A stretch of 64,000 nt of DNA from Daphnia pulex. Its lineage: Eukaryota; Arthropoda; Branchiopoda; Diplostraca; Daphniidae. The position numbers and the translations under genes were made by a program. Shown one piece after another: positions 13,208 to 18,509 of the stretch. Each line of letters begins with the position of its first letter. Within the stretch, counting starts at the first letter, position 1. The stretch spans positions 6,904,501-6,968,500 of the forward strand of contig NC_060028.1 in the NCBI RefSeq assembly GCF_021134715.1, given 5' to 3'. The notes under the pieces are model-generated. The model made no database searches. It saw only the letters and a list, made by a program, of their open reading frames with translations, and was not told where the DNA came from.

Positions 13208-14653
13208 TTAATTAGTTTTAGTTACGACGATCGCGAAACTAACATTGCCTTCATCTTCGTTATATGAATCAATGCTAATGGAAGAAAACTGCGCTCCTGG
13301 CGAACCTTCAATATTGATACTGCTTTCACTTCTCCGGAATTCAGAAAGATCAATTTCAACACCTTGATAAATCCCTGGATTAGCGTTGCTGATGTTTACT
13401 GTTTCTCCTGGGTGCAAAAGCCGATTCGAAGCTGATGACGGGTCAGTAGAATCGTCTGATTCCCCATCTGAAGAGTAATCAGGGGCGGTAGACGACCCAA
13501 CAACGTGATTTATCGCTTCCGGAAATCCGGGTGTCTGATTAAAATTTGGATTGAAGGGAGGAGGGTTGTCGTTACTGGTAGACTTTTGACGGCGAAAAAA
13601 ATCTAAAATAAAACAATAAAAACATACTCACGATATAAAGATATGCCATATGCCAGTCTTTTATTATATACACAATCCCAAATAGTGAACGTACGTACCT
13701 CGAAGATGTTTTCTTTTCCAAAAAGCGCCCACAGCCGCGGCCACAATCACAATGGTGGTGATCGCCGTTATCACCCAGTAGGTGACAGAAGTTTCGATTA
13801 CAGGAGTCGACAAATTGCCAATTGGTTTGCAATAAATGGATTTCCCCCCTCCTACTAGGTCTTCTGCTTCCGTTCTAATTAAAAAACAAAAACAAAAAAA
13901 CAATCACATCATGATTAGCAAACAAAGAAATAAAAATTAAAATAAGCTTGTGACTTACCCCGGAAGACAGGGACCACAGTTTTTTATTTCTTTGACGCAG
14001 CTGTTAGCAGATTCCTCTCGTCGGAATAACTGGCACTTAACGCAATCTCCTTCGCAAAATCCGTTAGAGCAGAAAGTACTGAAAGAGCAATCGGCATCTT
14101 CAAGGCACTATAGCAGCAATTCAGCGTCAATTGAAAATAACAAAGACAAAATGGAGGTTATTGCAATAAAAACAAACACAAATTTTTTTTAAAATAAGGC
14201 TTTTCTGGTTGCATTTGATTTAATTTTTTTTTCTGACTAGACAACGTTAGAAACAACTTGAATAAGCTCTGAAATTTGGTTAGTTGAGTCGTCTGGCTCA
14301 TGCCTCCATATCTCTGGCCGTTTTTGGCTATGACGCATCGATAAAATTATTTGTGTTGCATTGCACCACGATTGAATTGCATCAGTATTTCGAAATTTCG
14401 ATACGAAATTCAAAGATACGTATGTGAATGTGAATGTCTCAGAATATCGAATTTGAAATAATTCGAGTTTTGAATTAGGAATTACAGTCTCAGTTAAATC
14501 TTACAATGATTTGTTATATTTGTATTATTAAATGCCAATTTTTAAAAAGCCTACCTTTTCACGCCCGTTGGCGTTTCCAAGAACAACGAGGACCAAAACC
14601 AGAATTACACGAAGCTTGGCGAAAGATCTCCTCTGCTGTTTTCGTGAATACAT
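13208..14653 (-). CDS. Single-pass membrane receptor with TNFR-like cysteine-rich ectodomain
   Basis: Four coding exons on the minus strand, all in phase: 14653-14555, 14107-13959, 13874-13699 and 13602-13208, giving 272 residues. Residues 1-30 are a clear signal peptide (VILVLVLVVLGNANG). Residues 34-82 hold nine closely spaced cysteines ending in CGPCLPG, which resembles a TNF-receptor cysteine-rich repeat. A membrane segment (YWVITAITTIVIVAAAV) covers about 115-135 and is followed by basic WKRKHLR. The cytoplasmic part (about 135 residues) is Ser/Asp/Asn-rich with no death domain; a conserved-looking block GVEIDLSEFRR lies near the C terminus. Arthropod TNF receptors such as Wengen and Grindelwald also lack a death domain, so this could be such a receptor, but I cannot prove orthology. 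It is divergently paired with the kinase-caspase gene, 570 bp away. Confidence 0.75.
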
Positions 14654-15223: not shown

Positions 15224-18200
15224 ATGACACTGTCTCTGTTGGTTGATATAAACGCATCTTCAAGTGCCGATTCCGCTTTAGGTTCGATAGAATTGGGTAG
15301 CAGTAACACCACGAAGGAAAGCGCAAGTAACGTTTCCAATGATGTGTTATCCGAAGGAAACAAGACTCCTTGTCGTCAAATACGGATTACTATAACAGCC
15401 CCCGACGAAGTTTACAGGTATTAATGAAAAACCTCAATTTTCTGAATAAGGGAGAGCGAACCCAGAGTCCCAGATTAAACCAAAACATTCTTTTTTTTTC
15501 CAAAACTCCAAAATAATAACAATTGGGAAAAACAGTTTTGATTCCCAATTTCCCAATTTTTGCTAAATGCAAATAAATGCATGTAAAAGCCAATAGCAAT
15601 CCTTCTTAAAAAAAAAAAAAAAAACGTTATTTTTAAGCTCCGTATTTCCCACAATTTGGCCAGGTGGCCGCAAGAGCGGGAATAGGGAATAGCCTATTAA
15701 CATTTCTTCCATCTTTATTTCTTGTTATAAACTTTACGCACTACTTACCCTAAAAAATATTATTGGCAATCATTTATAACTGATGGGCAGGTTTGATAAG
15801 ATGCCCGTCACTGTTGAAGAAAAATGTTTTTGTTACTTCTCTAGTAGCTGCGGTTTTCCGTTACACGCGCATTTCTGGGTTCGTTCTCCCTTAATCCTAA
15901 TTCCTAATTCCTTTTGTATCTACTGTTTAACCATTTCAATATTCAGTCAACTTTGGCAGGCGACCCAGAAGCATCCGGCTCTAAATGTAGTGGAACTCAA
16001 GATTGTCCCGAATGAGATTGCCTCTAAGAGTGGTATGTATACAACTACACATAACAGTTAACATATGTTACTCTATTACCATGCTGAGTGAAACACAAAA
16101 AACTAACACGATAAGAAAAATATAACAATTACATTAGCTAATAAATTCGAAAAAAAAAATGTGTTTAAAAGTTCACAAATCGTTATTCATTTTATTTCGT
16201 TTTTTACAAAAACTCTTTCACAGGTAGGGCTTGGGTTCGAAGAGGAGGTAAATTGAGTTATGATTGCAAATGGTCCCAAGAGAAGGGAGTTCGTAAGTGT
16301 GAGCCCAGAACTCTTTTAAACTCTCCGCGACAGGCGTCCAACAATAAGCGAAAAATTTTCCAAGGATTTCACGAATATAACATTGACGTGGCCATTGAAA
16401 AAATAGAAATGAGGGACGATCTAATTATTGAAATAGAACGCGAGTTTCGAATCCTCCGAGAACTGGATATCCACGAAAATTTCATTCGCTATTTCAGCTA
16501 CGAAACGGACGAAAGAAATGATTTTGTGTAAGAGACAGCAGAATTTAATAAAATTTTTATCAAAGACATATTTTAATTATAATACAAATAATTGACAGGT
16601 ACATAGCAACAGAGCTCTGCCTGTGTTCGGTTGCTGACCTATTCCAGCAAAACTCCGAAGATCATAAGACTAAAGCGGCAGAGATATTATCATCCTTATC
16701 GGCAAAAGGAATCCTGTTCCAGGCGACAAGGGGACTTGACTACCTCCACCAAAATCATTTCGTCCACCGCAACGTCAAGCCAAGCAGTTTCCTTATCAAG
16801 GAAATTCAATCAAGCAACAGTTCCAATCGTTACGCAGTCAAAATAACTGATTTTCGACTCAGCCGACAGCTCGATCAGGGAAAAGATTTATCTGGAACTG
16901 TCGCATCGGAAGGCTGGGAAGCTCCTGAAAGTCGTCGTGAGAAGCAACCACTTCACCAATCGCTCGACGTATTCATTCTCGGTTGCTTCTACCATTACGT
17001 CTTGACTGGAACGGATGACGGCGTCGATTCCAGCCCAACTCATCCGTTTGGCAATACCGAAATGGCGCGTCTCGTAAACATCCCCAATACCAAAAATGAG
17101 GTTTATCAAAAGACTTGGATTCCAAAGGGCATAAGTAATAGAAAGGCTACTGATCTAATCAAGCGAATGATTCAATTCAACGAAAAAGATCGACCGACCC
17201 TGTCACAAATCCTAGAAGATGCTTATTTTCAACCGGCGACAAAGGAGGTCTATCCCATATACACGTACGATAAGCCCGGCCTCTGCGTTATTTTTAATCA
17301 GGAGTTGTTCACAAAGGTATATAATAAATCGTCGAAAAAATTTATTTTAACTTAATAATAATATATTTTATTTTGTATTAGCTATCGCATCGTGCAGGAA
17401 CTGCACAGGATTGGAAGCGACTCAGATTTGTCTTCGAGAAATTGGGTTTCCAAGTTGTGATTCATCATAACTTAATGTCATTCGATATCCGAGGCGAAAT
17501 GAAAAAACTGGCAAACGAAGATTTTTCAAAGTACGGCTGTCTGGTCGTTTGTCTCTTGTCGCACGGCATCGAAAACGCCATCGCCGGTGCGGATGGTCTC
17601 TATGTCAACGTCAACAAACTCAAGTACAAGTTCTCATACAACAACTGTCCCAGCCTCTACGGGAAACCCAAAATCTTTATCGTCCAAGCTTGCCAGGGAG
17701 TGCTGGAACAAAATGAGAGAAACATTGTACCGCTTACCCTCTTATCACCAGGTGCTGTTTGAATTTTCTTTAGAAAATAAATTCAACTTCTTGCTCTAAG
17801 TTTTAGGAATAATAAATTACGTTTGACTTTTTCTTGCAGATAAAAGTACCGGTGAAAGCAAAGAATCCACAGTGCAACTAAGCACGTCTTCAGCAGCGAT
17901 TAAATACATGACGAATTGTTTTCATTCTCTAAATTATAAAGACGGCGCGCCTAACCGAAATCCCCCGATTATGGATTTCATAACCATCAAATCAACAATT
18001 CCAGGATTCGTTTCTATGCGAAATGCTCAAACAGGCAAGTAAAAGTATATAGGCTCACAATTAAGAGCTTCCAAGCACGAAAATAACCTGCATGTCTGAT
18101 GGATCTTTATTTTTTCAAACTCTTAAAATCATGTCGTGCTTCGTTTTGCTGTCAACATTCAGGTACATATTTTATTCAAGCGCTATGTCAGAAAATGGAG

Positions 18201-18509
18201 GAAGAATATTTAATCAACACGAAGGCCAGCTCAGAGATGAATGGCGAGAACAAATGTGATTTGGAGGAGATTCTAAGAGGAGAAAATGGTGTCCAGTCCA
18301 TTATGAACAACAAAATACAGAACAGAGAATACAGACAAACTGTATCCTGGGAAACTTATCTAGGCAAATATGTCGTATTTCGCAGTTGCAGCAACCAAGA
18401 CATACTTCCTTACCGTGATGAGACAGACGTCGATGATGGATCAAACGCCCACTGTTTGGCGGAAAAATACAATTTCTTTGTTAGCCCTACTGACGACCAT
18501 CACGAGTAA
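15224..18509 (+). CDS. IRE1/RNase L-like kinase domain fused to a caspase domain
   Basis: Seven coding exons keep one frame: 15224-15417, 15947-16032, 16224-16527, 16599-17316, 17382-17751, 17840-18034 and 18163-18509, giving 737 residues. Residues 1-130 show no signal peptide or membrane segment. Residues about 135-405 are a kinase domain of IRE1/RNase L type (IATELCLCSVADLF, GLDYLHQNHFVHRNVKPSSF, DVFILGC, DRPTLSQIL). The catalytic HRD is HRN (251-253) and DFG is DFR (279-281), so it is probably a pseudokinase. From residue 420 (KPGLCVIF) a caspase domain follows with S1 Arg438, catalytic His495 in LLSHG, Cys538 in QACQG, and a small-subunit block GFVSMRNAQTG with Arg618. The kinase end and first caspase strand are in the same exon, so the fusion is not an annotation artefact. 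The usual KEN RNase domain is absent. The intron after 18034 uses a GC donor. Likely a cytosolic stress or death effector; substrates are unknown. Confidence 0.9.

Follow-up and report, generated by a model that had tools for sequence, protein, structure and literature searches.

Here we describe a gene of Daphnia pulex whose product joins a kinase domain of the IRE1 type to a caspase domain in one continuous reading, an architecture that is real, conserved and apparently undescribed. The gene lies in a stretch of 64,000 nucleotides (hereafter the window, whose numbering is used throughout) from an assembly of 133,188,837 bases in 13 contigs. No description of an animal kinase-caspase fusion was found in the titles and opening parts of abstracts of the open-access literature searched, a body of work that leaves most subscription journals outside. 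A sequence-only reading of the window had proposed this fusion and assigned it to no described family; the absence of a description stands in our search, but the protein is not a lone one, and a Daphnia family of such proteins is already present in the databases under misleading names.

Gene structure and domain content

A search over splice choices yielded an open reading of 737 amino acids across seven exons. Among the splice combinations tested 32 stay open, and the best-scoring eight of these encode 725-737 amino acids and differ near splice sites only. Five of the introns are of the GT-AG type and the sixth requires a GC donor (gcaagt from 18035), which is the reason why none of the tested combinations restricted to GT donors stayed open. 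The acceptors at 18163 and 18181 for exon 7 tied in a crude score; the first retains GTYFIQALC, also present in the related proteins P0001 and P0002 (see below). The features of the gene are the following:

15224..18509, plus strand: entire fusion coding region, seven exons, 737 amino acids
15224..15417, plus strand: exon 1, N-terminal region without a Pfam match
15947..16032, plus strand: exon 2, other ends possible
16224..16527, plus strand: exon 3, linker and kinase N-lobe
16376..17229, plus strand: protein kinase domain (Pfam PF00069, amino acids 145-405), one intron within
16397..16399, plus strand: Glu152, at the place of the VAIK lysine
16466..16489, plus strand: kinase-domain segment
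16599..17316, plus strand: exon 4, kinase hinge and C-lobe, then first caspase strand (the joint)
16765..16773, plus strand: HRN replacing HRD, catalytic Asp lost
16849..16857, plus strand: DFR replacing DFG
17278..18209, plus strand: caspase domain (Pfam PF00656, amino acids 422-638), three introns within
17382..17751, plus strand: exon 5, bulk of caspase p20
17562..17564, plus strand: catalytic His, in LLSHG
17691..17693, plus strand: catalytic Cys, in QACQG
17840..18034, plus strand: exon 6, intersubunit linker and beginning of p10, with the GC donor after it
18163..18509, plus strand: exon 7, remaining p10, C-terminal tail and stop codon

The Pfam scan of the 737-residue product, a check that the sequence-only reading had put forward, returned a kinase followed by a caspase: Pkinase (PF00069) at 112 bits (cut-off 31.7) and Peptidase_C14 (PF00656) at 137 bits (cut-off 21.4), the sole other match with E ≤ 1 being PK_Tyr_Ser-Thr, which overlaps the kinase. 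About 130 N-terminal residues are without a Pfam match. Exon 4 runs, as had been claimed, from the hinge through the end of the C-lobe and into the caspase strand KPGLCVIF, and with both domains in one reading and joined homologues elsewhere the proposed fusion is borne out. The two Pfam matches are separated by 16 residues, and the caspase therefore sits roughly at the position of the RNase in IRE1. Neither a KEN RNase domain nor DED, CARD or ankyrin repeats were matched by Pfam in the protein, and a genome-wide search with KEN (PF06479) gave three matches, none of them at the fusion locus, so that the earlier view of a caspase taking the place of the RNase agrees with what follows the C-lobe. 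In five proteins scanned (P0001, P0023, P0028, P0031 and that of the window) neither DED nor CARD was matched with E ≤ 1. No lumenal domain was matched by Pfam across amino acids 1-144, and the hydropathy scan detected no transmembrane segment, its top 19-residue value (1.42, at amino acid 486) falling within the caspase.

A Daphnia family with one shared history

A first protein search returned 26 rows, with both domains in 22, and a second search based on an alignment returned 58 rows, 24 of them with both domains and four of these new, making 26 database proteins with a Pfam kinase followed by a caspase. They do not amount to 26 genes, several D. magna records coming from different annotations. 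A species is given for 22 of the 26 and in every case it is a Daphnia (magna, carinata, sinensis, galeata or pulex); in this word-based and limited search no named protein from outside Daphnia was found to carry both domains. The orthologue search suggested beforehand has hence recovered the same domain order in five named species, under the names caspase 8, MAPK4, ire-1, Dronc and uncharacterised. P0001 shows 67% identity over 99% of the fusion protein and aligns through all six exon junctions, and P0002 (D. carinata) shows 66% identity over 95% and aligns through the junctions too, gaps near the second being the exception. In P0001 a frame of 745 codons fits on a contig of 2,381 bases, whereas the 737 codons of the D. 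pulex gene are spread over 3.3 kb; P0001 thus resembles a spliced transcript and, read in this way, speaks against the kinase and caspase parts being separate mRNAs.

In the genome of D. pulex, six more loci with a kinase and a caspase region on the same strand were identified among twenty 10-kb stretches examined by tblastn, L012 and L013 holding two each and L014 and L015 one each; their kinase matches came up again in an exon-by-exon search of the genome. In L013 and in L014 an open frame runs from the kinase into the caspase motif KPGxCVI, with the joint as in the window. Among the 16 stretches L016-L031, L023 gave no match and the other 15 matched the caspase but gave no kinase match of its own kind; in L024 one alignment reaches upstream by about 60 residues, with 23% identity. 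The database entry P0028 (D. pulex LOC124198235) is a paralogue of the fusion gene. The sequence-only reading had named, as grounds for abandoning the fusion, a lack of joined homologues together with an assembly error at 17000-17400; six paralogue loci and 26 proteins were found instead. The paralogues of L012, of L013 and of L014/L015 form tandem pairs. Some 40 kb separate L014 from L015, which have near-identical kinase and histone-H3-like stretches and are therefore likely products of a recent segmental duplication; of the two, L015 is possibly damaged, with a break perhaps in its kinase C-lobe. P0003 (Daphnia sinensis, 1194 amino acids) contains two kinase-caspase units in series, the first caspase being cut short; either gene models were merged in this record or the protein is truly double.

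We compared the histories of both halves in 20 members, comprising the window protein and the 19 of the 24 rows of alignment A3 with at least 250 amino acids in both halves; the same members formed the family rows of the two trees. Pairwise distances in the kinase half and in the caspase half were strongly correlated (r = 0.91, with 0 of 5000 permutations as high), mean identities being 56% and 52%, respectively. Each half formed one supported group (100/99 for the kinase and 96/88 for the caspase) against the outgroups retained (11 of 18 kinases and 18 of 19 caspases tried), and both trees placed the window gene with P0001 and D. carinata P0002, apart from 15 proteins of D. magna, sinensis and carinata. 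Judged from these sequence comparisons, the kinase and caspase halves share one history, the fusion having been inherited whole in Daphnia.

A pseudokinase of the IRE1 type and an intact-looking caspase

The IRE1 character of the kinase, also part of the initial reading, is strongly supported. In the profile search 16 IRE1 sequences scored 135-146 bits and the next kinase 71, IRE1 was the closest solved relative by sequence and by fold, and a 25-row kinase tree joined the fusion kinases to yeast and Daphnia IRE1 (98/97), the kinase-half tree described above likewise joining them to IRE1. RNase L was absent among the 60 solved-relative matches listed and may stand lower. The model of the full fusion protein was weak (mean pLDDT 62.6, pTM 0.46) and its structure lists were filled by caspases, and we therefore folded the kinase-only member P0022 (mean pLDDT 70.0, pTM 0.72) for the kinase fold search. 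The 25-row tree omits the stand-alone kinase L039 (HLD for HRD), represents the other stand-alone kinases by one exon or by two exon pieces put together, and represents IRE1 by pieces. IRE1 is likewise the top solved relative of L036, a stand-alone kinase (108.6 bits, the next being EGFR with 89.9), and likeness to IRE1 alone therefore does not set the fusions apart. The exon-by-exon search of the genome brought up no IRE1 exons, its top kinases outside the family being stand-alone; D. pulex does have a normal IRE1, with VAVK, HRD, DFG and a KEN domain (contig 1, 1.957 Mb). An origin of the fusions from stand-alone Daphnia kinases was considered and rejected, the 25-row tree placing the fusions with IRE1 and apart from seven stand-alone kinases.

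The catalytic motifs of this kinase have been lost throughout the family. HRD has become HRN and DFG has become DFR in 24 of 24 rows of A3, an alignment that leaves out P0003, P0021 (whose gene model skips the HRD stretch) and P0022; both replacements are also invariant in A4 (25 rows, including P0022) and in A1 (20 rows, including P0003). The VAIK lysine is missing in all 20 rows that cover its position. In the seven fusion loci of D. pulex HRN is present in 7/7, with DFR in five and DFS in two (L014 and L015). The sharing of HRN across the family is a conserved loss and not random decay, and the motif losses make it well supported that the fusion kinase is a pseudokinase, probably without kinase activity. 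Of the kinase proposed at the outset what holds is the IRE1-type fold, but probably not an active enzyme, every scored row having lost the Asp of HRD, the Lys of VAIK and the Gly of DFG.

The caspase half retains its catalytic His and Cys in 24 of 24 rows and both substrate-pocket Arg in 20 of 20, all of them also present in the window protein, and by these residues it appears to be intact, with a complete catalytic set. Its top solved relatives by sequence are caspase-3, caspase-7 and insect caspase-1.

Models of activation and possible immune role

IRE1 and RNase L are the textbook examples of kinase-fold dimerisers that drive an RNase, and an Arg at the place equivalent to R627 of IRE1 may occur in other kinases too. 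The RNase of IRE1 is set up when its kinase domains dimerise back to back, with D620 of one chain paired to R627 of its partner (PMC4536996 and PMC7736581). The counterpart of R627 is Arg in 18 of the 19 scored family rows (Gln in P0005), that of D620 is acidic in 16 of 19 (Asn in P0002, Lys in P0028 and Arg in P0017), and the window protein has Asp and Arg at these two positions. The stand-alone kinases L033, L034 and L036, aligned by eye, have Leu and Lys there. The kept interface Arg and its mostly acidic partner make a dimerisation-driven caspase somewhat likelier. That the pseudokinase is a dimerising prodomain that switches on the caspase by proximity is in our judgement the likeliest mechanism, although it is about as likely as not to be right. 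On this reading the protein is a caspase-family protease, probably cytosolic, with an IRE1-derived pseudokinase as its prodomain. The pseudokinase would keep the back-to-back dimer or oligomer of IRE1, which a ligand, a partner or another kinase that phosphorylates it would favour; a pair of caspase domains, joined just past the C-lobe where IRE1 bears its dimerising RNase, would be brought together and activated through proximity, and would then cut downstream proteins involved in immune signalling or cell death. Dimerisation can activate caspases that are fused to inducible dimerisers, as stated in PMC2575513. The fusion protein itself is probably not a sensor of the ER lumen because it presents no transmembrane segment by hydropathy and no lumenal domain in Pfam, and nucleotide sensing by it is doubtful. 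For the stress or nucleotide sensor suggested at first, neither ER-lumen nor nucleotide sensing is supported.

MLKL offers an analogous case in which a pseudokinase receiver or lock is coupled to a death effector, that effector being a membrane-acting helical bundle and not a protease. In the same manner, the Daphnia pseudokinase could be bound or phosphorylated by a partner or by another kinase (IRE1 or a stand-alone HRD kinase) that frees the caspase, dimerisation not being the primary switch. The conservation of the dead-kinase motifs fits this possibility and candidate upstream kinases exist, HRD being present in seven and DFG in eight of the eight stand-alone loci read (L033-L040). However, no sequence link from such kinases to the fusion was shown, and the kept interface arginine would be unneeded for a mere docking site; we consider this alternative unlikely, though far from negligible. 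It is rather improbable that the kinase-like part merely targets the protein or recruits substrates, as a long prodomain that is cut off, the caspase being an ordinary executioner processed by other caspases. Asp residues close to the joint and in the intersubunit linker, together with caspase-3, caspase-7 and insect caspase-1 as top solved relatives, would agree with it, but the halves evolve in step and at a similar pace (56%, 52% and r of 0.91 as above), kinase-specific positions are invariant beyond what a discarded leader needs, and those best non-family matches of the family profile that bear a caspase name are mostly caspase-8. Unusual active kinases exist and the Asp of DFG is kept here, yet a true kinase-protease, active despite HRN and the missing VAIK lysine, is highly improbable in a family that has lost the VAIK Lys (20/20), the HRD Asp (24/24) and the DFG Gly (24/24). 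Finally, two adjacent genes joined by misassembly or gene prediction are barely credible and this artefact was rejected: although some relatives look merged or broken (P0003 with its two units and P0021 without the HRD stretch), the joint lies within one exon here and within one open frame at two paralogue loci, and it recurs in other species (five named ones counting D. pulex) and in the transcript-like P0001.

Placing the proposed dimerising pseudokinase-caspase among known systems, RNase L resembles it in outline as a kinase-fold dimeriser driving an enzyme, but the fusion protein has neither its ankyrin repeats nor its KEN domain. With IRE1 it shares the kinase domain, the mostly kept interface Arg and an effector directly past the C-lobe, whereas no KEN RNase, lumenal domain or membrane helix was found in it, its catalytic kinase motifs are lost and its effector is a caspase. 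With initiators of the caspase-8/Dredd type it shares a long prodomain followed by a caspase domain, several family members being indeed named caspase 8, but in place of the DED its prodomain holds a pseudokinase. The TNFR-caspase and LRR-caspase proteins of amphioxus (PMC2575513) are likewise lineage-specific shortcut fusions of an upstream module to a caspase, although that module is a receptor or repeat module and not a kinase. With the kinase fold kept, catalysis apparently ended and a caspase in the place of the RNase, the family provides a natural test of whether the IRE1 kinase fold serves as a proximity switch in general. It also offers, in an animal used as an ecological model, a way of activating caspases that involves no death-fold domain.

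A 2009 survey reports eight D. pulex caspases and excludes their prodomains, which varied too much to be aligned (PMC2685406), and in annotation of this kind a fusion family could hide. In Table 1 of a 2015 survey Daphnia is assigned one IMD, one FADD, no DREDD and no PGRP (PMC4833078), and on those tabulated counts a stand-in initiator caspase is therefore an attractive idea. A tentative extension, to which we give a minor share of our confidence, is that the expanded and partly tandem pseudokinase-caspases are a class of Daphnia innate-immune receptors that would sense infection or damage within the cell, would directly activate their caspase output by dimerisation and would stand in for DED-based initiators. 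If true, this would be an inflammasome-like switch made from a kinase of the unfolded-protein response.

The DED search of the genome gave one match, perhaps FADD, at L032 (contig 3, 13.09 Mb) with 26.9 bits, below the cut-off of 35.9, and the CARD search gave none; the controls of both searches gave no match in any genome, and absence is therefore not implied by either result. In the exon-by-exon search, 37 of 67 matches were kinase-only places outside the fusion loci, on contigs 3, 10, 11, 12 and others, and D. pulex apparently has a large set of stand-alone IRE1-like kinases as against the three KEN matches in the genome. Head-to-head with the fusion gene, their start codons about 570 bp apart, lies a small gene on the minus strand (window 13208-14653), its model encoding a type I membrane protein of 272 amino acids with a signal peptide, an ectodomain rich in Cys, a single transmembrane helix and a tail. 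A TNF receptor identity for this neighbour was considered and is not claimed, Pfam giving sub-threshold chance matches only and the PDB search none. Another uncommon caspase prodomain was observed in P0032 (eukprot, 1127 amino acids), which has ankyrin repeats and caspase domains, each twice.
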